This document shows positions 1-13,225 of a stretch of DNA of 64,000 bases, in pieces. This DNA comes from Mariprofundus ferrinatatus. Its GTDB lineage: Bacteria; Pseudomonadota; Zetaproteobacteria; Mariprofundales; Mariprofundaceae. The stretch spans positions 1,302,001 to 1,366,000 of the forward strand of contig NZ_CP018800.1 of NCBI RefSeq assembly GCF_002795825.1, written 5' to 3'. The notes under the pieces were generated by a model that worked only from the letters and a program-made list of their open reading frames with translations, was not told where the DNA came from and ran no database searches. A program made the translations under genes and the position numbers. The first letter of the stretch is position 1, and each line of letters begins with the position of its first letter.

Positions 1-823
1 CCACCTGTGCCACGGCGGGAATACCGCGGAACGGCGGCAGCATCATGGCGTACTTGAATGCCACCTCATGCGTATCCTCGGTTTCACCCTTACTGTTGAC
101 GGTTTCAACGTGCATCAGGCCATCTTCGATCTTGGTGGTCTTGGCATTGGTAAGCCACTTGATGTGACGCTGTCGCATCTCGGACTCGAGCATACCCTTT
201 GAATCACCGACACCACCGAGACCCAGGTGGCCGATATATGGCTCACTGGTCACAAAAGTCATCGGAACCTTATCGCGAATCTTGCGGCGACGAAGTTCGG
301 TATCAAGAATCATGGCGAATTCATAGGCAGGACCGAAGCAGGAAGCCCCCTGTACGGCACCAACAACGATCGGGCCGGGGTTCTTGCAGAACTCTTCAAA
401 TGCGTGGTAGGCCTCAACTGCATGATCGACATGGCAGACCGAATGGGTATGGCCGTCAGGCCCCAGTCCATCCACCAGTTCAAATGCAAGTCGCGGACCG
501 GTGGTGATCAGCAGATAGTCATACTCGAGATCGTGACCATTGTGCAGGGTCAGCTTGTTCTCTTTCGGATGGATCTCTTTCACGCCACTGGCAACAAAGT
601 TAATCCCCTTCTTGTTCAGGTACGGACCAACCTTAAAGCTGATATCCTCTTTGGTGCGCCAGCCGACTGCCACCCACGGATTTGAGGGCACAAAGTGGAA
701 GTAGTCCACATTTGATACCACTGTTACTTCGTGATCCTTGCCGATTTTGTTGAGGGCCTCTTTCATCTCATAAGCAGCCGGCATGCCCCCGATACCTGCT
801 CCCACGACTACAATATGCGCCAT
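1..823 (-). CDS. Sulfide:quinone oxidoreductase-like flavoprotein, C-terminus off window
   Basis: FAD-dependent disulfide oxidoreductase that probably oxidises sulfide to polysulfide/persulfide and reduces membrane quinone. Translating the minus strand from the ATG at 823 gives MAHIVVVGAGIGG..., a Rossmann FAD motif at residues 6-12. Cys130 lies in SVCHVDHAVEA and Cys162 in QGASCFGPAYEF; these contexts match two of the three catalytic cysteines of SQR. The third Cys and the C-terminal membrane helices lie beyond base 1. About 274 codons are visible. It is the last visible gene of the rhodanese/DUF302/DUF2892 run, which supports a sulfide role over a generic NADH dehydrogenase. The gene continues past the left edge. 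Confidence 0.85.
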   Translation of the reverse strand, partial: MAHIVVVGAGIGGMPAAYEMKEALNKIGKDHEVTVVSNVDYFHFVPSNPWVAVGWRTKEDISFKVGPYLNKKGINFVASGVKEIHPKENKLTLHNGHDLEYDYLLITTGPRLAFELVDGLGPDGHTHSVCHVDHAVEAYHAFEEFCKNPGPIVVGAVQGASCFGPAYEFAMILDTELRRRKIRDKVPMTFVTSEPYIGHLGLGGVGDSKGMLESEMRQRHIKWLTNAKTTKIEDGLMHVETVNSKGETEDTHEVAFKYAMMLPPFRGIPAVAQV

Positions 824-887
824 ATTTCTCTCCTCATTAGCAAAGGGCTCTGCCCCAGTTATTACTCTGTTTTGTCTGTAATTCTGA

Positions 888-1094
888 TCAACCCTTGTTG
901 CCGCAGGTGTTGATACCCAGCAGCGGATAAAGCGGGCAGAACTTAATCAGCACTGTCAGTACAAATACGCTGCCGGCACCGATTGCCACAGCATTCCAAG
1001 GGGAAGCCAGGCCACCCATATAACCGAATGCGATCAATGCCGCACCGGCAACCAGACGAATTACGCGATCCACTGTTCCTACATTTGCTTTCAT
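888..1094 (-). CDS. DUF2892 (YgaP-type) small membrane protein A
   Basis: A 68-residue inner-membrane protein of the DUF2892 family, the membrane domain found fused to rhodanese in YgaP. Two hydrophobic helices, about residues 13-28 and 35-52, are followed by the family tail CPLYPLLGINTC with two cysteines. RBS GGAGAG sits just upstream of the ATG. It lies between DUF302 and the SQR gene in one co-directional run. A role in persulfide or thiocyanate handling at the membrane is inferred from YgaP; the biochemical function of stand-alone DUF2892 is not settled. Confidence 0.85.
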   Translation of the reverse strand: MKANVGTVDRVIRLVAGAALIAFGYMGGLASPWNAVAIGAGSVFVLTVLIKFCPLYPLLGINTCGNKG

Positions 1095-1125
1095 ATCATC
1101 TCTCCATTGTCTAATTTATATTTTT

Positions 1126-1518
1126 TTATTTGATGCTTTCGAGCGCCTGCTCAAGCAGTGGCCTCGCATCGTCGGCCAGTTGATTCAATTCACTGTTATC
1201 GAGCATGCCGACCATGGCCAACGGATCAATCACCGACACCACAGTCTCATCACTCTCATTCTGATAGACGATCACATTGCAGGGCAAAAACAGCCCAAGC
1301 TCTGCCTCGGCATTCAGCCCTCTATTGGCAAGATTCGGATTGCATGCACCCAGAATCACATAGGGCCTGCGATCCACATTGATCTTGTTTTTCAGTGTTG
1401 CAGCCACATCAATACGGGTAAGAATTCCGAAACCCACCTCTTTCAAGGCTGCTGTAATGGCTGCTTCCGCCTCGTCGAGGCTGCCGTCATACACGGCTCT
1501 TATGCCATAGCTGTTCAA
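1126..1518 (-). CDS. DUF302 family protein
   Basis: A 130-residue protein of the DUF302 family, whose function is unknown and which often sits beside rhodanese and sulfur genes. The family core is visible: ALKEVGFGILTRIDV near the N-terminus, then GACNP and LPCNV, each bringing one conserved Cys. I chose the TTG start at 1518 because GGAGGT lies 5 nt upstream and the protein then begins NSYGIRAVYDG, as family members do; a longer ATG start at 1557 would overlap the rhodanese gene by 43 nt. The TTG overlaps the rhodanese stop codon, so translation is probably coupled. Confidence 0.8.
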   Translation of the reverse strand: MNSYGIRAVYDGSLDEAEAAITAALKEVGFGILTRIDVAATLKNKINVDRRPYVILGACNPNLANRGLNAEAELGLFLPCNVIVYQNESDETVVSVIDPLAMVGMLDNSELNQLADDARPLLEQALESIK

Positions 1519-1853
1519 TTCACACCTCCTTCGACCGGATAACCACTGTTGCTCCATGCCATGGTTCCCCCATCGACATTGATCAGGTTATTAAATCCAA
1601 GCTGCTGTTTAAGGTAAACAGCAGCCTGTGCAGAACGTGCTCCGGAGTGGCAGATAAGGAAAACATCACCCTCTTTCGGTACCTCATTGGCACGAGACAT
1701 CAAAGTATTGAGCGAGATCAGTCTGGCGCCAGGAACATGGCAGGCGCGATACTCTTCCGGTGAACGCACATCGATCAGTGTAAATGGGCGATTGTTTTCG
1801 CGCGCCACCAGCCAACGTGGATAGAGCTGATCTACTGTTACTGCATCCAACAT
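1515..1853 (-). CDS. Cytoplasmic single-domain rhodanese
   Basis: A 112-residue rhodanese without signal peptide or membrane span, so predicted cytoplasmic. The domain runs through TLIDVRSPEEYRACHVPGA to the active-site loop CHSGARS (Cys68) and ends GGTMAWSNSGYPVEGG. Such domains carry sulfane sulfur as a Cys persulfide. The start overlaps the upstream rhodanese stop (TAATG) and the stop overlaps the DUF302 start. It is the third rhodanese of this cluster and the only one lacking an N-terminal hydrophobic segment. Confidence 0.9.
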   Translation of the reverse strand: MLDAVTVDQLYPRWLVARENNRPFTLIDVRSPEEYRACHVPGARLISLNTLMSRANEVPKEGDVFLICHSGARSAQAAVYLKQQLGFNNLINVDGGTMAWSNSGYPVEGGVN

Positions 1854-2275
1854 TATTTCACCACCTGATATTCTGCATCTTTCCAGGCAGTGATCCCGCC
1901 CAGCACATTCTCAATATTACTGTAGCCTGCTCTGGCCAGAATGCCAGCCGCCTGAGCTGAGCGCTTGCCTGAACGGCAGTAGACATATACCTGCTTATCT
2001 TTCGGCACCTCATTCATGCGCACTTCCAGTTCCTGCACCGGAATAAGCCTGGCGCCCTCGATATGCCCGTCGGCATACTCCTCGGGCGTTCGCACATCGA
2101 TAAACTCAAAAGGTACGGCAGACGAGGCCCCCTGATTCCAGTGTTGATATGCGTGTTTCACCTCGGTGTTTTCGTAACCTTCGGCAACTTTCTCACCAAA
2201 TCCGCATGCTGCAGCCGTTACCGGCAACAGAAACAGTGCGATCAGCATGATCCAGACCTTCTTTGCAACCATCAT
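1853..2275 (-). CDS. Exported (periplasmic) rhodanese
   Basis: A 140-residue rhodanese with an N-terminal signal sequence: basic MMVAKK, then a hydrophobic core to about residue 22, then AAAC. Export to the periplasm is predicted; the AAAC is a poor lipobox, so anchoring as a lipoprotein is less likely. The active-site loop is CRSGKRS with Cys100, preceded by FIDVRTPEEYADGHIEGA. GGAGGAG lies just before the ATG. A candidate ArsR-family operator 28-47 nt upstream suggests a promoter that starts the distal sulfur genes (rhodaneses, DUF302, DUF2892, SQR). Confidence 0.88.
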   Translation of the reverse strand: MMVAKKVWIMLIALFLLPVTAAACGFGEKVAEGYENTEVKHAYQHWNQGASSAVPFEFIDVRTPEEYADGHIEGARLIPVQELEVRMNEVPKDKQVYVYCRSGKRSAQAAGILARAGYSNIENVLGGITAWKDAEYQVVK

Positions 2276-2302
2276 CTACTCCTCTTTCCTTTCATTATTA
2301 TA

Positions 2303-2322
2303 TATAAGCAAATCGTAATATG
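2303..2322. promoter_or_regulatory. Candidate ArsR operator, site B
   Basis: The plus strand reads TATAAGCAAATCGTAATATG and matches the site at 9279-9298 in 16 of 20 ungapped positions, including GCAA and GTAATATG. It fits TATWA-N8-TAATAT. On the minus strand it is followed at once by TATAAT, a good -10, 28 nt before the exported rhodanese start. Binding by the ArsR protein encoded at 8922-9251 is inferred. Confidence 0.55.
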
Positions 2323-2351
2323 CCTGTGCTTCGTTTCTGTGACAATGTCAC

Positions 2352-2759
2352 TTAACCACGACTGCGTACCGGTAATCCGGCACTGCTCCATGCACCCATG
2401 CCACCGGAGAAGTTGTAGACCTCTTCATAACCGGCGTTGGCCAGTGCAGTTGCAGCCATCGATGAGCGGCCACCGGAGGCGCAGATCACTACAACCGGCT
2501 TCTCTTTCTGAATTTCATGCATGCGCTCCTTTATTTCCCCTAAAGGAATATGAACCGCATTTGCAGCATGTACTGCGTCCCACTCATGCTGCTGGCGCAC
2601 ATCAACCAGCGTATGTGATTGATTACGCATCTGCATGTAATCGGCCGCCGAAAGTGATTTTACGCCCGACATTTTAGGGCCAATCACCCGCTGCCAGAGA
2701 AACCAGCCGATCAGCAGAGCGATGAAAATGTAAACAGCATTCTGTTGCATAAATTGCAT
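2352..2759 (-). CDS. Membrane-anchored rhodanese
   Basis: A 135-residue rhodanese with one N-terminal membrane span (about residues 9-26, YIFIALLIGWFLWQRVIG), then a rhodanese domain with TLVDVRQQHEWDAVHA and active-site loop CASGGRS (Cys93). The positively charged residues just after the span suggest the domain faces the cytoplasm, though topology is not certain. It lies between the RND/DUF2892 genes and the exported rhodanese, with about 76-200 nt gaps on each side, so it may have its own transcript. With its two neighbours it gives three rhodaneses with three predicted locations. Confidence 0.87.
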   Translation of the reverse strand: MQFMQQNAVYIFIALLIGWFLWQRVIGPKMSGVKSLSAADYMQMRNQSHTLVDVRQQHEWDAVHAANAVHIPLGEIKERMHEIQKEKPVVVICASGGRSSMAATALANAGYEEVYNFSGGMGAWSSAGLPVRSRG

Positions 2760-2889
2760 CTATCTTTCCTCAATTCCTGAAATTAATTATCAGCGGGTAC
2801 AGACGGTTCACGTATGGGAGGGGGGGAGAGAAATCCGCCTGCACCCGCCGAAACATGGCAATGGAGCGCTCTTATGCTATTGTGCAAAC

Positions 2890-2961
2890 AGCAGCAACAG
2901 CCATTGCTCGTTCTTTATTTCACTATCGCGCAAATAAGAGCAACACCCATTGCTCTTATTT
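2890..2961. repeat. Duplicated stem-loop between RND block and rhodanese block
   Basis: A perfect 12-bp inverted repeat (AAATAAGAGCAA at 2932-2943, loop CACCCA, TTGCTCTTATTT at 2950-2961) overlaps the 3' end of the DUF2892 gene. About 30 nt beyond it is a decayed second copy, AGCAACAGCCATTGCTCGTT (2893-2912). On the minus transcript the main hairpin ends in TTATTTG, a weak U-tract, so it may act as a partial terminator or an mRNA-stabilising structure between pump and rhodanese genes. Confidence 0.6.
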
Positions 2962-3180
2962 ACTTGCTTCACAGCAGGATTTCATGCCCAGCTTGGAAAG
3001 AATGGTTTCCATCAGGCACCAGTTGGTGAAACCTGACTGCAGCAGGTTTGCACCGACAAATGCGGTGAACCAGAGCCAGGTCGGCTCGGTCAGTACCACG
3101 CCGTTATAGAGGTGGGCCAGATATAGGCTCAGTAGTATAAATGAGCCTGCAATAATACGAATAGTGCGTTGAATCGTCAC
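2956..3180 (-). CDS. DUF2892 (YgaP-type) small membrane protein B
   Basis: A second DUF2892 protein, 74 residues from the GTG at 3180, which has AAGGAGC upstream; upstream in-frame ATG codons would lie inside the RND gene. Two hydrophobic spans are visible (IIAGSFILLSLYLAHLY and WLWFTAFVGANLLQSGF), followed by CLMETILSKLGMKSCC, the Cys-bearing family tail. It sits 26 nt after the RND stop and looks like the last gene of the pump operon. It differs from protein A (888-1094) in sequence and has an extra C-terminal cysteine pair. Confidence 0.8.
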   Translation of the reverse strand: MTIQRTIRIIAGSFILLSLYLAHLYNGVVLTEPTWLWFTAFVGANLLQSGFTNWCLMETILSKLGMKSCCEASK

Positions 3181-3206
3181 AATAGTGCTCCTTGGATTGA
3201 TTTTTT

Positions 3207-6200
3207 TTATTTGTTCGATGGCAGCGTCGAGTAGTCCTGTTCGGACTCCCACGGACGATCTTTATGCCAGAGGTAGTACATCAGAGGCGTCACAAAGAGG
3301 GTCAAGATCGTGGCCGCCAGAGTTCCGAATGCCATTGATACACCGAGACCTCCGAATACCGGATCGGTAATCATGATCGAGGTTCCGGCAATCACGGCAA
3401 GGGCAGTCAACAGAATCGGACGAGCCCGAACTGCACCCGCTTCCAGAACAGCCTCTTTTACGCCATTTCCCTGCTTACGGTAATCAACAATAAAGTCGAT
3501 CAGCAGTGTCGAGTTACGCACCACAATGCCGGCAAGTGCGATCATGCCGATCATCGAAGTAGCGGTGAATGGCTGGCCGGTAATCCAGTGGCCGGGAAAG
3601 ATACCGATCATGGTCAGAGCGGTTGGCGCCATCACCATCATCGGCAGAACAAATTCACCATAATATGCCACCATCAACAGGTAGATCAGCACCAGTGCCA
3701 CGATAAAGGCGGCTCCCAGATCACGGAACACATCGAGGGTGAGGCGCATCTCACCATCCCACAGCATGTGATAGCCGAAGGTGTTCTCAGGTGCAGTGTC
3801 GGTAAAGCGCATGCCGCCGGTCATTACGGTCGCACCCGGCACTACCTCCTGCCCATCCAGCTTGCCATCCATCTCAAGCAGCGGATAGACCTGTGACCCC
3901 TGCTTCGGCTCAGCCATGACGTAGGTAACCTGATGCCCGTCCTTGGTGTAGATCGGTTTGGCGACAATGCCCTCCTCAATCACAGCGATTGCTGAAAGCG
4001 GAACCGCCCCCTGCGCACCGCTGACATATATGCGGCTCAGATCCTCGGCATGGGCACGCAGTGCTTTCGGCAACTGCACATGCAGGCGCACCTGATGGCG
4101 CTCCTCGTCAATATGTACGGCACCGAAATCATAGCCCTGCAGGAAATCGTGCAATGCTGTAACCACCTGCTGGGTGGCAACGCCAAGATGCGACGCCTTC
4201 TCTTTATCCAGACGAACATTGAGTTGCTGCTGATCGTCACCGACAGAATCATCAATATCGGTCACATCGTAGGTTTCGGCAAACCTCTTACGCACCTCTT
4301 TGGCCAGTTCTCGCTGGGTTTCGTAATCAGGCCCATAGATCTCGGCCAGCAGCGTTGAACGAACCGGTGGGCCCGGCGGATCTTCCACCAGCTTGATATT
4401 AGCCGACGGATTGGCATCAATCACAGGGACCATCAGCTCACGCAGTTCCAGAACGATAGCTGCAGAGCGGATCGAGCGCTGGTGCTTGTCCACCAGGTTG
4501 ACGCGAATCTCGGCAAGGTTAGAGCCCTGCCTGAGCACTGCACCGCGCAACATGCCATTGAAGTCGACAGGACCTGCCTGACCTACAAATGTTTCGTAAT
4601 CAACCACCATCGGATGGGCGCGCAGAACACTGCCCACCTGACGGGCAACACGGTCACTCTCCTCGAGAGTCGAACCCTCCGGCAGGTCGATGGTAATATT
4701 AAAGGTGTTGTTATTGCCCTTTGGCAGCATCTTCAGCTCAACGCTGCCAAAGGTAAGCGGGCCGTTGATGCCGGCAGGACGGATGAACTGCCAACCCGGC
4801 TGAATCATCGCCCCGACAAAGAGCAGTAGCGTTGCAATCCAGAAAAGCTTGCGAACACGCTTATCCTCAATCAGCGGCACGGCATAACGCATGTAGGTGC
4901 GATATACCCAATCTTTCTCGTTATGGTTGTTATGATTCTGTACGGCAGACACATTTTTCGTTGGCAGAAAACGCTGCGCTATCCACGGCGTGAACATGTA
5001 TGCGATCACCAGTGATGCGGCCATGGCTACCGGCGCATTGAACGGAATCGGCCCCATGTACGGCCCCATCATACCGGTTACAAATGCCATCGGCACAAAA
5101 GCGAGTATCACGGCAATCGTGGCGATAATGGTCGGCTTGCCCGTTTCATTAGTAGCCATGACAATCAGCCGTGCCTTATCCGCCGCATCCCTCACACCTT
5201 TGTGGAGATGGCGGTGGATATTTTCAATCACCACGATGGCGTCATCAACGAGCAGGCCCAGCGACAGAATCAGTGCAAAGAGAGTAATACGGTTGATCGT
5301 CTGGTCGGCCATAAGCCCGATCGCCAGCACCACGAATAGAATCAGCGGGATGTTGAGCGTAACGATCGTCGCTTCACGCCAACCCAGGAACAGCAGCAAA
5401 ATAAGAATGACGGTGCCAATCGCAATACCGAGATGTTCAATGAGCATGTTCACTGCGGCATTGGCACGCTGACCGGAGTCACGGGTAACCGTAGCTGTCA
5501 CATTGTTGGGGATAAAATCACCCTTCAGCTCGTTCAGCTTCGCCTCAATGCGCTGGGTAACGACTACGGCATTTGTACCCCGTTTCTTGGCCAGTGCAAT
5601 CGAAACGGCTGGAAGCTCAGGTTCAACGTCTGTGGAACCGCCTGCGACTGAACTTCCGAAACCGATACGGTGGAAGTTTTCCACCTCGGCCGGACCATCA
5701 GTGATGGTGGCGATATCCCTGAGGTAGATCGGCTTGTCCTGCCACTGGCCGACAATCAGTTGCCCGACCTCATCAGCAGTTTTCAGATAGCCATCAAGCC
5801 ATATCTTGGTTTCACGGTTATTGCCCACCAGTGAGCCGACCGGGCCGCCTGCATTGGCGGAGACCAGCACACTGTGCAGTTGATCCAGCGGAATGCGGTA
5901 AGCTGCCAGACGGGCAGGATCAAGGCGGATGCTGATCTCATGATCGCGGCCACCGATAATTTCGGCTACAGATACACCTTCCAGCGGAGCCAGCTGATCA
6001 CGAACCCGCTCGGCCAGGCGCTTGAGCGCCAACCCGTCAAGATCGCGAGAACTGAGTGTAATGACTGAAGCTGGCACATCGTCGACATCAACCGGCTTCA
6101 CCAGCGGCTGCGAGGCACCGGCCGGAATGCGGTCCATGTTCTGCATAATGCGGTCGTAGAGCTTAACGAGGCTCACCTCTTTATCCTCGCCCACTTCAAA

Positions 6201-6509
6201 CATCACGGTAACCACGGCCTGGGAATCCATCGCCATGCCATAGGTGTGCTCCACGCCTGTAATCTCACGCAGCACCATCTCCAGCGGACGAACAATCAGG
6301 TTCTGCACCTCTTCCGGGCTGGCGCCCTGCATCTGGACAAAGACATTGGCTGCAGGCACATCGATCTGCGGATTCTCTTCACGCGGTGTCACCATCAGTG
6401 CCACAGCACCGATCAGGAAGATCAGGATACTGAGCATAGGCGTCAGGTTGGTGAACATCGCCGCCTTCCCCAGGCGGCCTGCAATATTCAATGAATGATT
6501 GTCGCTCAT
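3207..6509 (-). CDS. RND efflux transporter, inner-membrane pump (HAE1-like)
   Basis: A 1100-residue proton-driven RND permease, slightly longer than AcrB (about 1050). Visible family signs are the first transmembrane segment (residues 22-40), the porter loop EENPQIDVPAANVFVQMQGASPEEV, and GLLVDDAIVVIENIHRH in TM4 with the proton-relay pair Asp422-Asp423, typical of drug/organic pumps rather than heavy-metal CusA types. The second half repeats the fold, ending with MIALAGIVVRNSTLLIDF and VFGGLGVSMAFGTLAATILTLFVTPLMYYL. Its start overlaps the adaptor stop. Linkage to an ArsR regulator and persulfide genes suggests a sulfur-related substrate, but none can be read from sequence. Confidence 0.93.
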   Translation of the reverse strand: MSDNHSLNIAGRLGKAAMFTNLTPMLSILIFLIGAVALMVTPREENPQIDVPAANVFVQMQGASPEEVQNLIVRPLEMVLREITGVEHTYGMAMDSQAVVTVMFEVGEDKEVSLVKLYDRIMQNMDRIPAGASQPLVKPVDVDDVPASVITLSSRDLDGLALKRLAERVRDQLAPLEGVSVAEIIGGRDHEISIRLDPARLAAYRIPLDQLHSVLVSANAGGPVGSLVGNNRETKIWLDGYLKTADEVGQLIVGQWQDKPIYLRDIATITDGPAEVENFHRIGFGSSVAGGSTDVEPELPAVSIALAKKRGTNAVVVTQRIEAKLNELKGDFIPNNVTATVTRDSGQRANAAVNMLIEHLGIAIGTVILILLLFLGWREATIVTLNIPLILFVVLAIGLMADQTINRITLFALILSLGLLVDDAIVVIENIHRHLHKGVRDAADKARLIVMATNETGKPTIIATIAVILAFVPMAFVTGMMGPYMGPIPFNAPVAMAASLVIAYMFTPWIAQRFLPTKNVSAVQNHNNHNEKDWVYRTYMRYAVPLIEDKRVRKLFWIATLLLFVGAMIQPGWQFIRPAGINGPLTFGSVELKMLPKGNNNTFNITIDLPEGSTLEESDRVARQVGSVLRAHPMVVDYETFVGQAGPVDFNGMLRGAVLRQGSNLAEIRVNLVDKHQRSIRSAAIVLELRELMVPVIDANPSANIKLVEDPPGPPVRSTLLAEIYGPDYETQRELAKEVRKRFAETYDVTDIDDSVGDDQQQLNVRLDKEKASHLGVATQQVVTALHDFLQGYDFGAVHIDEERHQVRLHVQLPKALRAHAEDLSRIYVSGAQGAVPLSAIAVIEEGIVAKPIYTKDGHQVTYVMAEPKQGSQVYPLLEMDGKLDGQEVVPGATVMTGGMRFTDTAPENTFGYHMLWDGEMRLTLDVFRDLGAAFIVALVLIYLLMVAYYGEFVLPMMVMAPTALTMIGIFPGHWITGQPFTATSMIGMIALAGIVVRNSTLLIDFIVDYRKQGNGVKEAVLEAGAVRARPILLTALAVIAGTSIMITDPVFGGLGVSMAFGTLAATILTLFVTPLMYYLWHKDRPWESEQDYSTLPSNK

Positions 6510-7534
6510 TATTTAGCCTGTACTTTCATACCGGTAACAAGAGCCGGTGAGCCGTTCCATGCCACTGTGTCACCCTCATGCAGACCGGCCAGCACCTCGA
6601 CGAGTTCATTGCGCACCTGACCGATACGAATCTGACGGTAGTTAACGATACCTTCGCTGTCTGCCACATAGATGCCGTTAAGGCCACCGCGATCGATCAC
6701 AGCTGCTGCAGGCACCTGCAGCCCCTTACGGCTGCCAACCTTGAAAGCGACCTGCGCATACATGCCAGGATGCACATCATCGCGCAGTTCAAGTGCTATC
6801 TTGATCAGGAACTGGTGTGTAACCGCATCGGCCGCCTGCACAACCTGGCGAACCGTACCGGCAAAAGCCTGCTTCAGAGAAGCAACCTCGATTTCAACTT
6901 CATCGCCCGCATGGATGCCACTGACATACTGCTCGGAGACATAGGTCTCAACCAGCAGGCTGGCCGGATCCTCCAGTGTCAGAATCGGCGCTCCGGGAGA
7001 TGCGAGATCGCCCTTGTTCATCTTTTTCTCGACGACAACCCCATCAACAGGAGATCGCACCTCGGCATAACTGAGCTGGTTGCGCGCCTGTTCCAGCTGT
7101 GAGCGAGCCACCTTGTAACGCAGGCGGATACGATCCAGTTGCTGCTTACTTACGGCGCTCGCCTTGAAAAGTTCCTCATACCGGTTGAGATCCGCTTTTG
7201 CATCGGACATGTCTGCCTCGGCCTGCACAACACCCTGACGGGCATTCACAGGGTCAACGCGAACCAGCACATCGCCCGCCTTAACGCTGTCCCCTTCACG
7301 AACCGGCAATTCTCGAATATATCCGGAGAGACGTGATGAAATGGATACACGGTGATCTGAGGTCACAGTGCCACTGGTGACATAGCGGACAGGAAGGTCA
7401 GCGGCAGCAAGTGTCAGAATTTCAGCCTTGGAGACCGCCTTAGTGGCAGATTCGCCTGTGCCATCATCGGAACTGCAGCCTGCAAGCAGAAGCCCTGCAG
7501 TAAGCATCGATGCAAACGCGAAATATCTGTTCAT
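6509..7534 (-). CDS. RND adaptor (membrane fusion) lipoprotein
   Basis: A 341-residue periplasmic adaptor linking pump and outer-membrane channel. The N-terminus is a lipoprotein signal, LTAGLLLAGC, with Cys20 as lipidation site. The biotinyl-lipoyl-like halves are visible (SGYIRELPVREGDSVKAGDVLVRVD and VRSPVDGVVVEKKMNKGDLASPGAPILTL) around a coiled-coil hairpin at about residues 100-150. A beta-barrel and membrane-proximal domain follow. It overlaps the pump start by one base and the TolC stop by 4 nt, so the three pump parts are tightly coupled. Confidence 0.92.
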   Translation of the reverse strand: MNRYFAFASMLTAGLLLAGCSSDDGTGESATKAVSKAEILTLAAADLPVRYVTSGTVTSDHRVSISSRLSGYIRELPVREGDSVKAGDVLVRVDPVNARQGVVQAEADMSDAKADLNRYEELFKASAVSKQQLDRIRLRYKVARSQLEQARNQLSYAEVRSPVDGVVVEKKMNKGDLASPGAPILTLEDPASLLVETYVSEQYVSGIHAGDEVEIEVASLKQAFAGTVRQVVQAADAVTHQFLIKIALELRDDVHPGMYAQVAFKVGSRKGLQVPAAAVIDRGGLNGIYVADSEGIVNYRQIRIGQVRNELVEVLAGLHEGDTVAWNGSPALVTGMKVQAK

Positions 7535-8916
7535 TGAATCACCTCTTCATTGAGCATGCCGATTGAGAGCAGCAATGCCGCCTGAGCAACCGTTACATCA
7601 TATCTGGCTTGAATAGCCGCAACGCGCATGGAATCCGCCTGCACCTGTGCATCGAGCAGGTCGGAGGTGCTGGTCAAACCCTGTTCATAGCGCAATGACT
7701 TGATCCGCAGAGACTCAATACTCTGCTGCATGGCCTCATTTTCGCTTTCATGGCGCATTTGAGATTCGGCAAGCTGGCGCCATGCATGTGAAACCTCGTT
7801 GTGAATCTGCTGCTTGAGGTCGCCTACCCTGTACTCCAGCGACACCTCTTCTGCCTGAGCGGCACGTATCTTCGCGGTATCGGAACCGCCGGAGAAGAGA
7901 TTCATGGTTACTGTAGCGCCAACCATTGTATTGCGGTTATTCATACCAAAGGTAGGTGAATTCCAATCCTGGGCTGCAACCAGATTTACATGTGGCAAAA
8001 AAGAAGCGCGCGACTGATGAACGCCGGCCGATGCCGCCTTATGCTGATTTTCAATCGCCATCAGGTCAGGACGGCTGGCAAGTGCCTTCTCTACTGCCTC
8101 ATCCAGTGAAAGAGCCGGCATCTTCAACTTCGGATCCTCTTCAGTATTCAGGTGCACATCACCATTAAGACCCATCACCTGCTCAAGTCTATCCTTGCTA
8201 GAGGAGAAACCGTTTTTCGCCTCCTCCAGCTTGACGCTCATACGAAGCAGATGAACACGTGCATCCATCACATCACTCTTAATCAACACGCCGCGATTCT
8301 GCATGGCTTCGGTATCCTGCAAGCGCTTACTGGCAGCCGTGACAGCACTCTCCATCGCAGCAATCTGCGCCTGTGCCTGGCGAACACGGGCATAAGCGGA
8401 AACCGTCTGAAACACCACCTGCTGCCTCATGTAGTGATGACCATACTGGCTCGCTTCGGCCTGATGCGAAGCGATAGACCTGCCTGCCCATAGTGCACCA
8501 CCCTGAAATACGGGCATCGTGACACCGATACGGGTCTGGTAGTTGTTTATGTATCCGGGATTGTTCATGAGTACCGGGTTAAAATCTGCAGCTGTAATCG
8601 CCTTCTGGTTCAGCTTGATACCGAAATAATCTCCCGGTGCATTGGTTCGTGCCACGCCTGTTGAGAGATCTACACGCGGCAGCAGACGGCCCGTGGCATC
8701 GGAAACGGATGCATTTGCCTGCTCAACCGATTGCGCATTGGCGCCCAGCATGCGGTTATGTTCAAGGGCGTACTCGACACTCTGACGCAAGGTCGAAATT
8801 TCACCGGCAACGGCAGCGGTTGCAGATAAGATCATGACTGCAGCAAACAGTGTCGATTTTATTATATAATTATAATTTACTGATACTTCTGCGCGCAGTG
8901 CAGTACGGTCGCTCAT
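7531..8916 (-). CDS. TolC-family outer membrane efflux channel
   Basis: A 461-residue outer-membrane channel with the two tandem outer-membrane-efflux repeats: LRQSVEYALEHNRML...QANASVSDATGRLLPRVDLS in the first half and LDEAVEKALASRPDLMAIE...ASFLPHVNLV in the second. A signal sequence (FAAVMILSATAAVAG) lies unusually deep, after about 20 residues; no better in-frame start is seen, so the annotated ATG at 8916 may include a short odd N-extension. The gene begins 5 nt after the ArsR stop and completes a tripartite RND pump. Confidence 0.9.
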   Translation of the reverse strand: MSDRTALRAEVSVNYNYIIKSTLFAAVMILSATAAVAGEISTLRQSVEYALEHNRMLGANAQSVEQANASVSDATGRLLPRVDLSTGVARTNAPGDYFGIKLNQKAITAADFNPVLMNNPGYINNYQTRIGVTMPVFQGGALWAGRSIASHQAEASQYGHHYMRQQVVFQTVSAYARVRQAQAQIAAMESAVTAASKRLQDTEAMQNRGVLIKSDVMDARVHLLRMSVKLEEAKNGFSSSKDRLEQVMGLNGDVHLNTEEDPKLKMPALSLDEAVEKALASRPDLMAIENQHKAASAGVHQSRASFLPHVNLVAAQDWNSPTFGMNNRNTMVGATVTMNLFSGGSDTAKIRAAQAEEVSLEYRVGDLKQQIHNEVSHAWRQLAESQMRHESENEAMQQSIESLRIKSLRYEQGLTSTSDLLDAQVQADSMRVAAIQARYDVTVAQAALLLSIGMLNEEVIQ

Positions 8917-8921
8917 CGCCT

Positions 8922-9251
8922 TTACCCCTCTCCGTTAGAGGGTACGCACATTTCCGGGCAATAGATGAATTTCAACGCATGCACCAGATCTGCAAATGCC
9001 GGGTTGGCAATGCGATAGATGACTTCCTGTCCCCTCTTCTCATTTTCAAGAATGCCAAGCATACGCATCTTGGAAAGATGCTGTGACAGGTTGGACTGAG
9101 CAGCACCAGTGGCCTCAATCAGTTCATGAACACACATTGGGCGCTCCAGCAGCAGGCAGAGCACAGAGAGACGCAACTCGTGTGCGATAGCTCTCAGCCC
9201 CTGGCTGGCTGCTTTAATTCGATCTTCTGGAATTTGGATTGTCTCATTCAT
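8922..9251 (-). CDS. ArsR-family regulator, BigR/SqrR-like
   Basis: A 109-residue winged-helix repressor. The recognition-helix region ATGAAQSNLSQHLSKMRMLGIL and the wing QEVIYRIANP are typical ArsR. It lacks the ELCVCDL metal site of ArsR proper but has Cys32, Cys40, Cys98 and Cys102. Cys32 (in LSVLCLLLE) and Cys98 (in KFIYCPEMC) sit where the persulfide-sensing cysteines of BigR/SqrR lie, so sulfane-sulfur sensing is a reasonable inference. It heads the TolC-adaptor-RND operon and is divergent from the ABC exporter, as expected for a local autoregulator. Metal sensing is the alternative. Confidence 0.85.
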   Translation of the reverse strand: MNETIQIPEDRIKAASQGLRAIAHELRLSVLCLLLERPMCVHELIEATGAAQSNLSQHLSKMRMLGILENEKRGQEVIYRIANPAFADLVHALKFIYCPEMCVPSNGEG

Positions 9252-9261
9252 AGGACGAAAT

Positions 9262-9298
9262 ATATTCGATTCTTGTTATATTAGCAAGATGTAATATG
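9262..9298. promoter_or_regulatory. arsR promoter with candidate operator, site A
   Basis: The plus strand holds ATATTA-N8-TAATAT at 9278-9297, a perfect 6-bp inverted repeat. On the minus strand a promoter TTGCTA-N17-TATATT overlaps it: the -35 lies inside the repeat and the -10 falls at about 9260-9266. The same site lies 50-70 nt before the divergent ABC gene, so one bound dimer could repress both directions. Confidence 0.6.
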
Positions 9299-9348
9299 AA
9301 TGAGATTCCATACATTGAAGTTAGCTCCGGATATGGGAGATTAAGGGC

Positions 9349-10266
9349 ATGGAAAGTGTGATCGTCAGCGCAAAAGCATTACGCAAAACATTCGCGGATC
9401 GAGAGGTGGTGTGCGCTGTTAACTTTGATGTGAAGAGCGGCATCTGCTTCGGCATCCTGGGCCCTAATGGCGCGGGTAAAACCACGCTGATGCGTATGCT
9501 GCTGGGGCTATCCCCGGTAACATCGGGCGAATACACACTGTTTGGCCAGCCTGTTTCCGAGGCATCGATTCACACCCGGGTCGGCGTCGTACCGCAACAG
9601 GACAATCTCGACCCTGACTTCTCCGTTCGTCTGAATCTGAAGGTATATGCAGGATATTTCGGTATTCCTGCCTCCGTAGCTGAGCCCCGCATAGAGGAGT
9701 TGCTTGAGTTTGCCGCCCTCACCTCGCGCGGCGATGATCAGGTTTCATCGCTATCCGGCGGCATGCGAAGACGGTTGATGATCGCCCGCGCCCTGATTAA
9801 CAACCCGGATCTGATAGTACTCGATGAGCCGACAACCGGGCTCGACCCGCAGGCACGTCACCTGATCTGGCAGCGGCTGCGATCACTCAAAAACAGCGGC
9901 AAAACCCTCATCCTGACCACCCATTACATGGAGGAGGCTGCGGAGTTGTGCGACGAACTGATGGTGCTCGACCGCGGACATATTCTGACACGGGGCTCAC
10001 CGCGTGAACTGATTGCCGAGCATGTCGAACCGGAGGTGGTGGCAGTTCGCGGCTTAAGCAATGAGCTTGATGCCATTGAGTTGTGCGAAGGGCTGGATAT
10101 CCGTCTCGATCATGTCGGAGACACCTGGTTCTGCTATGGCCTTGATGCAAGACCGCTGGTATCCCGCTGCGCCGAACGAAACGATCTGATCTATATTCAC
10201 CGCCCCGCCTCTCTTGAAGATGTATTCCTGAAACTTACAGGTCGTGACCTGAGGGAAGATGCATGA
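9349..10266 (+). CDS. ABC exporter ATPase, NodI/DrrA-like
   Basis: A 305-residue ATPase of an ABC-2 type exporter. Walker A is GPNGAGKTT, the signature is LSGGMRRRL, Walker B is LIVLDEPTTGLDP and the switch His is in LTTHYMEEA. The size and the C-terminal accessory domain fit the NodI/DrrA branch that pairs with a single permease. It is divergent from arsR and its last codons overlap the permease start (ATGA). The substrate is unknown; sharing the arsR control region suggests co-regulation with the RND pump. Confidence 0.9.
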   Translation: MESVIVSAKALRKTFADREVVCAVNFDVKSGICFGILGPNGAGKTTLMRMLLGLSPVTSGEYTLFGQPVSEASIHTRVGVVPQQDNLDPDFSVRLNLKVYAGYFGIPASVAEPRIEELLEFAALTSRGDDQVSSLSGGMRRRLMIARALINNPDLIVLDEPTTGLDPQARHLIWQRLRSLKNSGKTLILTTHYMEEAAELCDELMVLDRGHILTRGSPRELIAEHVEPEVVAVRGLSNELDAIELCEGLDIRLDHVGDTWFCYGLDARPLVSRCAERNDLIYIHRPASLEDVFLKLTGRDLREDA

Positions 10267-11039
10267 GCAGCTATAAGGTGATACCAGCCCACATCGTGGC
10301 CGTCTGGCGGCGCAATTTCCTAGTCTGGAAAAAACTGGCAGGCGCCTCAATGCTCGGCAACTTCGGTGATCCGTTCCTCTACCTGCTCGGACTTGGTTAT
10401 GGCCTCGGCCTCTACATCGGTGACATGAACGGCATCCCCTACATGGCATTCCTGGCCAGCGGCATCCTCTGCTCCAGCGCGATGAATACTGCGACCTTTG
10501 AAGGGCTGTATTCGGCATTTACCCGCATGAACCAGCAGGGAACCTGGGAATCGATGCTCTGCACTCCAGTGCGCATTCAGGAGGTCATTGCCGGTGAACA
10601 GGTGTGGGCAGCCACCAAAAGCCTGATCAGCGGCACGGCAATCTTTATCGTTGCAGGAGTGCTTGGCGGTATCCAGCAGTGGGAAACCGCCCTCTTTGCG
10701 CTGCCGGTGATATTCCTGACAGGCCTCGCTTTTGCAGGACCCGCTCTGGCGATCTGCGCAATCTCCCCCAGCTACGATTTCTTCCTCTACTATTTCACGC
10801 TGGCCGTCACACCGATGTTCCTCTTCTGCGGTGTTTTCTACCCGATTGATACCCTGCCCGCGTTTATCCAGGTGATTGCGCAGGTGCTGCCGCTCACCCA
10901 TGCGGTAGCCCTGATTCGCCCTCTGTTGACGGAGCTGCCCTTGAGTATGCCACTTCTGCATATCGGCGTACTCGCACTCTATGCGGTCACAGGATTCATC
11001 TTCGCGGCTCATCTGGCCGCCCGACGCCTGCTACGCTGA
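10263..11039 (+). CDS. ABC-2 exporter permease, NodJ-like
   Basis: A 258-residue inner-membrane permease with about six hydrophobic helices and the ABC-2 pattern: cytoplasmic N-terminus with VWRRNFLVWKKL, then GDPFLYLLGLGYGLG, and FLFCGVFYPIDTLPAFIQVIAQVLPLTHAV near the C-terminus, which is characteristic of the NodJ/DrrB group. It overlaps the ATPase gene by 4 nt and is followed by a hairpin terminator. Together they form one exporter; the transported compound cannot be told from sequence. Confidence 0.88.
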   Translation: MSSYKVIPAHIVAVWRRNFLVWKKLAGASMLGNFGDPFLYLLGLGYGLGLYIGDMNGIPYMAFLASGILCSSAMNTATFEGLYSAFTRMNQQGTWESMLCTPVRIQEVIAGEQVWAATKSLISGTAIFIVAGVLGGIQQWETALFALPVIFLTGLAFAGPALAICAISPSYDFFLYYFTLAVTPMFLFCGVFYPIDTLPAFIQVIAQVLPLTHAVALIRPLLTELPLSMPLLHIGVLALYAVTGFIFAAHLAARRLLR

Positions 11040-11048
11040 ACAAATAAC

Positions 11049-11076
11049 AAAGCCCCCTGCACAAGCAGGAGGCTTT
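11049..11076. terminator. Bidirectional terminator
   Basis: AAAGCCCCCTGC-ACAA-GCAGGAGGCTTT forms a stem of about 12 bp with one mismatch. It lies between the convergent ABC permease and the 54-codon gene, with a T-rich end on the minus strand (GGCTTTGTTATTT) and CTTT on the plus strand. Confidence 0.75.
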
Positions 11077-11106
11077 GAAAAGCTACAACGTTTTAATCAA
11101 ACGTCA

Positions 11107-11271
11107 TTAATGATGCGACTTCGACATCAGCTTGAGCATTTTCAGATTGATGACGATAAAGCGGATACCCTGCCAGATCAGGGATGTACGCATGTAGCGG
11201 GTAAAACCGGTCGGGGCCGGCGGATAGTAAGCCTGCTGGTAAGGCTCCTTATTGGTGATTTTGTTTGCCAT
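11107..11271 (-). CDS. 54-residue small protein after the second SQR-like gene
   Basis: Short gene from ATG at 11271 to TAA at 11107-11109, with a strong RBS (GAGGAG, 6 nt spacing). The product starts MANKITNKEPYQQAYYPPAP, a polar Tyr/Pro-rich head, and continues with an amphipathic-to-hydrophobic stretch (about residues 29-47, TSLIWQGIRFIVINLKMLK) and a His-His end. It is 34 nt downstream of the SQR-like gene on the same strand, with only a terminator beyond, so the two form an operon. I do not recognise the family. A membrane-surface accessory peptide of the flavoprotein is a guess. Confidence 0.7.
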   Translation of the reverse strand: MANKITNKEPYQQAYYPPAPTGFTRYMRTSLIWQGIRFIVINLKMLKLMSKSHH

Positions 11272-11305
11272 ATCTTGCTCCTCAGAATTCTTGGTATCGA
11301 TTTAA

Positions 11306-12763
11306 TTAATCTGGCAGCACTGACCAGCCCGGTTTCAGCTTGGCCTGATAGATGAAGGTATGATGCAGAATATACTTCATCCAGTGGCCTGCCAAACCGA
11401 TTTCACCGGTCGTCAGCTCAAGGTCGCGCCCTGTATCCGGATATTTTTCGAAGTCCGGTACTACCGGGAACACAGTCATCGTGGCAGCTGTACCCTTGAA
11501 TATGTGCGATCCGGTTGAAGCCACGCAGGCTGCTCCCATCTCCGCCATGGATGCCGTATGCGTTGGTTCAGCAGCACCATTGACCATATCGCGGATACTC
11601 ATGGCCACGGCTTTCGCCATTGTCGCCGAAGGCATGCCGGTTCTTGGCGGTGTCGGATTGATGGCTGTGCCATTGGTACTCTGCATCGGTTTACTGATCG
11701 GATGCGGAGGTGCGAAAGCAATGCCGACCGCGAATACATTTTTATACTTCGGCGTCTGGTATTTTCTTGGCCAGTCTTTGGCACTCCACTCTGCAAATGG
11801 ACGTGGCGTGTAATCGGCATCCACCTTCATGAAACCGTTGGGTGCAAATACCTCACTGGTAATATCCTCACCCGCATTATTGAATGCCTGCAGACCTACA
11901 CCGGCAAACGGTGGAATCAGCATGGAGAAGTCGAACTCCTGCTCGTGGAACTCCCCATCCAGCGTCTCATAATGAACCTTACCGGCCTCAACCTTCTTCA
12001 CGTGAGCACGGGTAATCCACTCAATTCCACGCTCAACCATGAGGGATTCGGCAAAGGTTTTGCCATTGGTGACATAACCGCCACGTTTGATATGAACACC
12101 GCCCATACCGAAATCGCCCAGTTCGTACTCATTACTGATCCAAACAACACGGGCCATATCGCGAACACCCTCTTCACGCAGAATATGGTCGACATTATAG
12201 ATATATTCGAATGCAGCACCCTGGCAGGTACACATACCGTGACCTGTTCCGATCAGGATGGTGCAGTGCTCACCAGACTTCATTCTCTCAATGACCGCCT
12301 GGAGCTTCTGGTTCGCTTCAATGGCATGGCCCGCGGTACATACCGATACGGTATGGCCGTGATCCGGACCCAGGCCCTCTGTGGCACCAAAGTTGAGCTT
12401 CGGACCAGTTGCATTGATCAGGTAATCGTACTCAACATTTTCCTGCTCACCGGCTTTCTCCGGCAGCGTATATTCAATGGTAATAAACGGAGTTGAATTT
12501 TCTCCGGCACCTTCCGGATTGATCGACAACCCCTTGGCCTGGAGAAACTTCACATTGGTTTTATTATAAACCTCGGCAAGATCGAAGGTGACCTCTTCTT
12601 CCGTCATCTGGCCAACACCCACCCAGATGTTGGATGGTATCCAGTTCCATTTGGCATTGGGCGAAACAACGATGATTTCATGTTTCTTACCCAGCCATTT
12701 ATCAAGGTATCTGGCTGCGGTATGGCCTGAAATTCCTGCGCCTAATATTACGATTCGAGACAT
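11306..12763 (-). CDS. Second SQR-like FAD-dependent oxidoreductase
   Basis: A 485-residue flavoprotein with the FAD motif GAGISGHTAA at residues 8-17. Its cysteines align with those of the SQR at 1-823: Cys142 in SVCTAGHAIEAN and Cys180 in GMCTCQGAAFEY, and a third, Cys413, lies in MGAACVASTG. The C-terminus (GLAGHWMKYILHHTFIYQAKLKPGW) looks like an amphipathic membrane-binding end. An extra CxC (Cys178/Cys180) sits at the active site. It is a divergent SQR type; polysulfide, flavocytochrome-like or another quinone-linked substrate is possible. Its promoter carries candidate operator C. Confidence 0.82.
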   Translation of the reverse strand: MSRIVILGAGISGHTAARYLDKWLGKKHEIIVVSPNAKWNWIPSNIWVGVGQMTEEEVTFDLAEVYNKTNVKFLQAKGLSINPEGAGENSTPFITIEYTLPEKAGEQENVEYDYLINATGPKLNFGATEGLGPDHGHTVSVCTAGHAIEANQKLQAVIERMKSGEHCTILIGTGHGMCTCQGAAFEYIYNVDHILREEGVRDMARVVWISNEYELGDFGMGGVHIKRGGYVTNGKTFAESLMVERGIEWITRAHVKKVEAGKVHYETLDGEFHEQEFDFSMLIPPFAGVGLQAFNNAGEDITSEVFAPNGFMKVDADYTPRPFAEWSAKDWPRKYQTPKYKNVFAVGIAFAPPHPISKPMQSTNGTAINPTPPRTGMPSATMAKAVAMSIRDMVNGAAEPTHTASMAEMGAACVASTGSHIFKGTAATMTVFPVVPDFEKYPDTGRDLELTTGEIGLAGHWMKYILHHTFIYQAKLKPGWSVLPD

Positions 12764-12818
12764 GTTTCCTCCTGCTTATTCCTCATTTCTTATAACTAAA
12801 TCTCAAAATTATTGCGTG

Positions 12819-12846
12819 AATATATTATAATATCGTTATATGTCAA
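12819..12846 (-). promoter_or_regulatory. Promoter of second SQR-like gene with candidate operator, site C
   Basis: On the minus strand TTGACA (12846-12841), 16 nt, then TATATT (12824-12819). The spacer (12840-12822) reads TATAA-N8-TAATAT, the same arrangement as sites at 2303 and 9279 though with fewer matches in the N8 part. An operator filling the -35/-10 spacer would repress strongly. Confidence 0.55.
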
Positions 12847-12912
12847 CTTAATATTTCCATCATCAGGAAACAGCAATTGAATCGATGCAAGTCGGCAAAC
12901 GTTATTTAGAAT

Positions 12913-12986
12913 ATTATTAAATTAATAATTCTTGATAATTTTACTCAACTTTTACATACTGGAAAATTGGATCGCCCGAGAGGCGA
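12913..12986 (+). promoter_or_regulatory. Promoter and leader hairpin of the 33-residue gene
   Basis: A 17-bp AT-only inverted repeat (ATTATTAA-A-TTAATAAT, 12913-12929) sits where an UP element or operator would lie. It is followed by TTGATA (12932-12937), a 17-nt spacer and CATACT (12955-12960). The predicted leader then holds a hairpin TCGCC-CGAGA-GGCGA (12972-12986) just before the RBS. Confidence 0.5.
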
Positions 12987-13000
12987 CATAGGAGAGCAAC

Positions 13001-13102
13001 ATGAGTGAAGTATTATCAGGCTCGATGGATGGAATTATACTGGGCACTTTAGTGTGCGGCACCGCAGTGGCGTTCTTTTTATTCGTAGGTGGCGTTATTT
13101 AG
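13001..13102 (+). CDS. 33-residue single-span membrane protein
   Basis: Tiny gene with ATG at 13001 and TAG at 13100-13102, preceded by TAGGAGAGC at good spacing. The product is an acidic, Ser-rich head of about 11 residues (MSEVLSGSMDG) followed by one Gly/Phe-rich membrane span of about 22 residues containing a single Cys. A promoter, a leader hairpin and a strong terminator frame this gene alone, so it is probably expressed at a high level as a monocistronic message. I do not recognise it. Size and form resemble small subunits of membrane complexes (CydX- or CcoQ-like in style only, not in sequence). Confidence 0.72.
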   Translation: MSEVLSGSMDGIILGTLVCGTAVAFFLFVGGVI

Positions 13103-13132
13103 TCACCAAATGCACAACATGTACCAGTAGAG

Positions 13133-13158
13133 GTCCCGGCTTGCCGGGGCTTTTTTTT
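13133..13158 (+). terminator. Strong intrinsic terminator after the 33-residue gene
   Basis: CCCGGC-TT-GCCGGG stem extended by one G-U pair, followed at once by GCTTTTTTTT. It lies 31 nt after the stop codon on the plus strand. Confidence 0.9.
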
Positions 13159-13225
13159 GCCCTGATTATTGCAACCAAACAAAGGGATGATAAAACACCA
13201 TCTTCTCCTTCGCCAAGTTACCCCC

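Follow-up and report, generated by a model that had tools for sequence, protein, structure and literature searches.

A candidate ArsR operator set joining sulfide-handling, RND-pump and respiratory genes in Mariprofundus ferrinatatus

In a stretch of 64,000 nucleotides from the marine, iron-oxidising zetaproteobacterium Mariprofundus ferrinatatus (hereafter the window; contig NZ_CP018800.1, positions 1,302,001 to 1,366,000), three copies of an AT-rich inverted repeat, ATATTA-N8-TAATAT, lie in the promoter regions of genes for sulfide handling and export. We consider it likely that these are operators of the ArsR-family protein encoded at 8922-9251 (minus strand), which would be an autoregulated thiol-persulfide-switch repressor of the BigR/SqrR/YgaV type. 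Sequence comparison places the three sites in a lineage-wide operator set rather than in a local trio, and the control exerted by ArsR probably also reaches respiration genes. The original prediction of a candidate ArsR regulon is supported by these comparisons, and its proposed members, namely the RND operon, the distal rhodanese genes with their sulfide:quinone reductase (SQR1), an ATP-binding cassette (ABC) exporter and a second SQR-like gene (SQR2), remain linked as candidates; the regulon appears larger than proposed, with respiratory and redox targets outside the window.

A palindrome in front of arsR, the rhodanese genes and SQR2

The sites had been predicted from the pattern TATWA-N8-TAATAT, which is present as claimed at 2303-2321 (TATAAGCAAATCGTAATAT, plus strand), 9279-9297 (TATTAGCAAGATGTAATAT, plus strand) and 12822-12840 (TATAACGATATTATAATAT, minus strand); on recounting, 16 of 20 positions are identical between the first two. 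The exact pattern gives four strand hits at these three places, compared with none in 100 dinucleotide shuffles. All three places were right, and the orthologous arsR promoters of 30 relatives show that the real unit is the palindrome, one base longer on the left. In this form, operator A in the divergent region between arsR and the ABC genes is perfect (9278-9297, ATATTA-GCAAGATG-TAATAT; no strand is assigned to the palindromes), and one mismatch each is found in the operator preceding the Rhd2-Rhd1-DUF302-DUF2892-SQR1 genes (2302-2321, ATATAA-GCAAATCG-TAATAT) and in that of the SQR2 promoter spacer (12822-12841, ATATAA-CGATATTA-TAATAT, read on the minus strand). No fourth site had been noticed in other intergenic regions of the window, which stands for separate places with the exact pattern, but the prediction missed operator B (9262-9281, ATATTC-GATTCTTG-TTATAT), which overlaps both operator A and the arsR -10 element and shares the middle half-site with operator A. 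The resulting three half-sites at a pitch of 16 base pairs (bp) recur in most orthologous arsR promoters; they would offer two overlapping dimer sites and probably a tighter autoregulation.

Circular reasoning from the three sites to their own motif is avoided by a symmetric matrix that was trained on 26 arsR promoters, all from genomes other than that of the window and the three most closely related to it. It ranks 9278-9297 first, 12822-12841 second, 2302-2321 third and operator B fourth in the window, so that a matrix from the arsR promoters of other species recovers the other two sites, and none of 100 simulated windows contained matches as strong as the top three (0.00 expected per window).

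The palindrome takes up two positions relative to the promoter. At arsR (promoter 9259-9287, minus strand; -35 TTGCTA at 9282-9287, 17-bp spacer, -10 TATATT at 9259-9264), the -35 element lies within the spacer of operator A, an arrangement that is shared by the orthologues and by the promoters of a cytochrome b561 gene. At SQR2, and likewise at genes for a thioredoxin and a cytochrome c, the palindrome occupies the stretch from the -35 to the -10 element. The SQR2 promoter (12819-12846, minus strand) combines TTGACA, a 16-bp spacer and TATATT with 11 of 12 matches, confirming the predicted placement of the site in the spacer, and is the best promoter-like match in 800-13200. Since the palindrome covers the core promoter in both layouts, a bound dimer of reduced ArsR would exclude RNA polymerase. 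Persulfide or polysulfide arising from sulfide would then link Cys32 to Cys98 and make ArsR let go, upon which SQR, the rhodaneses, the RND pump, ArsR itself and several respiratory and redox proteins would be made. The binding of the reduced form and the release by persulfide are carried over from SqrR, BigR and YgaV (PMC9774250, PMC5823870).

Occurrence in the genome and in relatives

How specific the palindrome is becomes apparent when all 64 half-sites made only of A and T are combined with 15 spacings and the resulting 960 patterns are ranked for each promoter set. ATATTA-N8 ranks first of 960 for the arsR promoters (21 of 30 within one mismatch, nine perfect), for the cytochrome b561 promoters (eight of eight, seven perfect), for the cytochrome c promoters (four of five) and for the gap ahead of the rhodanese genes (four of six), third for the thioredoxin promoters (three of eight) and seventh for the SQR2 promoters (five of eight). 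In another collection of 35 further loci (428 kilobases), fetched around arsR and drawn in part from genomes already in the first set, the palindrome occurs 43 times within one mismatch and 17 times perfectly, counts that describe its position within such loci and not its genome-wide frequency. The 63 other A/T-only half-sites reach a mean of 3.8 and a maximum of 13 in the same sequence, the latter for a one-letter neighbour of ATATTA, and 38 of the 43 sites directly precede arsR, a rhodanese gene or SQR2.

To obtain the genome-wide rate, genomes were searched for the pattern and, as a control, for its reverse. The complete genome to which the window belongs (2,301,665 bases, GC content 54.2%) holds four perfect and 13 one-mismatch places, compared with zero and three for the reversed pattern. 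With two mismatches allowed, the excess shrinks to 62 places versus 39, so only strong sites are informative. TATTA-Nk-TAATA is found at five reported places for k = 8 (the place at 842831 fits as well) and at two at most for spacers of similar length. Across 15 genomes of the Mariprofundus group, 27 perfect palindromes face three reversed controls. Occurrence at background rate across the genome, which had been named beforehand as the outcome that would speak against the regulon, is not what these searches returned (13 versus 3, and 27 versus 3), and most genome sites tested precede redox or respiratory genes, which again argues against background.

Conserved sites stand ahead of the cytochrome b561 gene, which is followed by an FGE-sulfatase gene (789757), ahead of the thioredoxin gene (164806), where the opposite side is occupied by a hemerythrin-domain gene, and ahead of the cytochrome c gene (1032102); at 1505121, where the gene behind the site is of unknown family, conservation is only partial. 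The one-mismatch places also include one near ftsH (270387), one near a BcsB-like gene (596179), one at 627490, and two inside reading frames (700123 and 1901721) that look like chance. Altogether, the palindrome is kept upstream of the orthologues of six targets of this genome. Separately, a 63-amino-acid orphan frame beside trpS is preceded by a TTGACA/TATACT promoter that contains a perfect palindrome (G000:C1:842831-842850, locus L054), and this palindrome is kept in a relative (G011:C1:1569505, locus L279).

The relatives extend the picture in two directions. Perfect sites lie directly upstream of cydA (cytochrome bd) in two of them (G002 and G013; L078 15442-15461 and L285 1972-1991), which suggests a direct link from sulfide to the oxidase, and further perfect sites are found near ccoN and ccoG. 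ArsR homologues of other groups with 38-51% identity carry the palindrome at their own promoter: a perfect site heads an arsR-tolC-mfp-rnd-rhodanese locus from another part of the phylum (L118), and the distant homologues at L131 and L133 head persulfide-dioxygenase operons with the palindrome at the start. The nearest named relative among the ArsR loci is Mariprofundus sp. KV, with 95% ArsR identity.

Within the window, the candidate operators frame a set of sulfide-handling and export genes. On the minus strand, arsR is followed by genes for a tolC-type outer membrane factor (7531-8916), an RND periplasmic adaptor (6509-7534), an RND permease closest to HAE1-type pumps (3207-6509), a YgaP-like transmembrane (DUF2892) protein (2956-3180) and the rhodanese Rhd3 (2352-2759), the final gene of the arsR operon ahead of the 2302 operator. 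The permease reached no curated NCBIfam cut-off, and no close solved relative of it was found. At the arsR/tolC junction in several genomes (L080 7977, L087 699, L090 4091, L097 559), a near-identical ATATTAAAAAATCGTTATAT-like site is present, possibly an internal operator. Past the 2302 operator and on the same strand lie Rhd2 (1853-2275), Rhd1 (1515-1853), a DUF302 protein (1126-1557), a second YgaP-like DUF2892 protein (888-1094) and SQR1 (1-823), which runs past the window start, is complete in locus L061 and scores 561 bits against the SQR structures of A. ferrooxidans. The sulfide-handling genes linked to ArsR are three rhodaneses, SQR1, SQR2 and two YgaP-like membrane proteins. SQR2 (11306-12763, minus strand) encodes a distant SQR-like flavoprotein with 134 bits to the Aquifex enzyme. 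Divergent from arsR, on the plus strand, a NodI-like ABC ATPase (9349-10266) and a NodJ-family ABC-2 permease (10263-11039; TIGR01291 above cut-off) form an exporter that is tied to the regulon as a candidate through the shared divergent arsR site only. Near the SQR2 and ABC genes, a hydrophobic reading frame of 33 amino acids (MSEVLSGSMDGIILGTLVCGTAVAFFLFVGGVI, 13001-13102) has tblastn matches of 38-47% in three relatives.

The ArsR protein and competing explanations

The repressor has 109 amino acids, matches Pfam HTH_5 and adopts the ArsR/SmtB winged-helix fold in a model with a predicted local distance difference test score (pLDDT) of 82.9. The top Foldseek matches include SqrR, HlyU, BigR and YgaV as well as metal sensors, so the fold alone cannot decide the signal. 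The best-matching solved sequences are those of the same four proteins plus a mycobacterial SmtB. Two cysteines hold the positions that mark the BigR/SqrR/YgaV group, one in the second helix and one where the last helix ends: in the alignment, Cys32 and Cys98 fall on the sensor cysteines of YgaV, BigR, HlyU and SqrR, and neither varies in two sets of orthologues (30 of 30 and 19 of 19). The protein's own promoter carries the AT-rich inverted repeat with the 8-base spacer, with ATATTA rather than ATTC as the half-site.

Several observations weigh against ArsR as the persulfide-sensing owner of all these sites. Genome G019, a 92%-complete assembly, lacks an arsR orthologue and the RND gene and keeps weakened sites (one, two and three mismatches) rather than none. 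Among six close relatives, the window's genome counted, the rhodanese site is present in four (G000, G011, G016, G020) and absent in two (G001 and G015); Ghiorsea has independent rhodanese-linked palindrome sites of its own. ArsR scores 57.5 bits on the NCBIfam BigR model NF040642, whose cut-off is 155, which places it in the wider BigR/SqrR/YgaV group and not with BigR itself. Two extra cysteines at positions 40 and 102 are frequent, making a metal or another thiol signal conceivable, and the SQR2 promoters favour a different palindrome.

This last point feeds the alternative that survives best. A 12-bp palindrome, ATATTATAATAT, lies within the SQR2 site at 12822-12833, and the conserved feature of 12822-12841 could be this palindrome, hence a different operator, or merely a strong promoter: for the eight SQR2 promoters, ATATTA-N0-TAATAT ranks first of the 960 patterns and is placed above the N8 palindrome. 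Two comparisons favour the N8 palindrome instead. In G016, the 12-bp palindrome is broken while ATATAA-N8-TAATAT is kept, and other relatives have the layout TTGACATATWA-N8-TAATAT at their cytochrome c promoters without the 12-bp palindrome. For SQR2 taken by itself, we therefore hold a separate operator to be a serious if improbable option.

Two further alternatives appear about equally unlikely to us, and clearly more so than the one for SQR2. The sites could be real operators of another regulator that also controls arsR, as many targets outside the window are respiratory (the neighbourhoods of cytochrome b561, cytochrome c, cydA, ccoN and ccoG) and the weakened sites of G019 persist without arsR. 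Such a regulator would have to account for the palindrome at the own promoters of ArsR relatives from different groups, down to 38% identity, and for a geometry that equals the one reported for SqrR; respiratory targets are also no obstacle to an ArsR-type protein, since in E. coli YgaV has respiratory genes, cydAB among them, under its control (PMC9774250, PMC11858517). The other alternative leaves ArsR on its sites and changes its signal to a metal or metalloid that the RND pump would export. In favour of it, efflux is often under the control of metal-sensing ArsR proteins, a mycobacterial SmtB gives the best fold match, and Cys40, which lies within a CVHEL stretch, is nearly invariant. With regard to the invariant ligands that ArsR/SmtB metal sensors have in the third or last helix, the picture is mixed: Cys40 is nearly invariant, Cys102 is variable and no full known ligand set was recognised. 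On the other side, the extra cysteines are invariant in the 30 nearest orthologues and not in distant ones; L116 has lost Cys40, and Cys102 is not constant. The pair that never varies is Cys32/Cys98, at the positions of the sulfide sensors. Multidrug-type RND models give the permease a higher score than CusA/CzcA (433 versus 250 bits), and the regulated neighbours are rhodaneses and SQRs.

Finally, the shared letters could be mere AT-rich promoter elements (TTGMTA and TATAAT-like) without any operator, given that at arsR and cytochrome b561 the spacer's TTGM, together with some of the right half, forms the -35 element and spacer of a sigma-70 promoter, but this is very improbable: in that layout the core promoter does not include the left half-site ATATTA, which is nevertheless kept at the fixed 8-base spacing, the position of the palindrome relative to the -35 and -10 elements differs in SQR2, thioredoxin and cytochrome c, and other A/T half-sites and spacers do not match the level of ATATTA-N8, so that explanations by sigma-70 elements only or by AT-richness were rejected by the 960-pattern and 63-control tests.

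Known sulfide sensors and the meaning for Zetaproteobacteria

We would like to place the candidate ArsR switch into the context of known sulfide-responsive repressors. SqrR of Rhodobacter capsulatus shares the ArsR fold, the cysteines at the Cys32/Cys98 positions, an AT-rich repeat with an 8-base spacer (reported as ATTC-N8-GAAT; PMC9774250) and the control of SQR, but has only 31% identity to ArsR, whose half-site is ATATTA/TAATAT and whose candidate regulon extends to a TolC-adaptor-RND operon and an ABC exporter. BigR of Xylella and Agrobacterium has the same cysteine pair and fold and represses sulfide detoxification, reminiscent of the persulfide dioxygenase operons behind the homologues at L131 and L133; the dioxygenase is not in the Mariprofundus operon, and ArsR falls short of the BigR family cut-off. 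The best sequence match of ArsR in the PDB is E. coli YgaV (1.3e-13); behind its gene, too, stands a YgaP-type rhodanese/membrane gene. At the ygaV promoter, the recognition site is covered by YgaV itself, and loss of YgaV raises cydAB reads (PMC9774250), in line with its described repression of the cytochrome bd genes (PMC11858517), so that control of respiratory genes is a further likeness; in contrast, at the promoter of ygaV in E. coli the palindrome is found only with four mismatches, and no RND operon belongs to the system. Two sensor cysteines are also present in SoxR and sHdrR of Hyphomicrobium, ArsR-type repressors that respond to sulfane sulfur (PMC10451225, PMC12423496), but these control thiosulfate oxidation and not SQR plus efflux.

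The type of switch is known, while this controlled gene set does not appear to have been described previously; a literature search, with most subscription journals outside its coverage, found no paper on this regulator in Zetaproteobacteria. The most interesting aspect of the finding is the RND pump together with the putative genus-wide respiratory regulon. We tentatively propose, at somewhat less than even confidence, that in iron-oxidising Zetaproteobacteria one persulfide-sensing repressor acts directly, by way of one conserved operator, on the removal of sulfide, on an RND pump and on thiol repair, and that this control extends to parts of the respiratory chain, in some species with cytochrome bd among them. 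The candidate cydA operator, perfect in two relatives, bears on the sulfide-raised expression of cytochrome bd, whose mechanism has been called unresolved (PMC9774250), and makes a direct link testable, while the operator matrix is a tool for mapping sulfide-sensing regulons in metagenomes. Mariprofundus isolates such as CP-5 and CP-8 possess SQR genes, yet sulfide does not support their growth (PMC5513912). If SQR, rhodaneses and pump formed a regulon under persulfide control, these genes would be explained as serving protection and not energy metabolism. If the proposal is true, sulfide at the oxic-anoxic boundary would shift the cells to a sulfide-tolerant respiration in one step.

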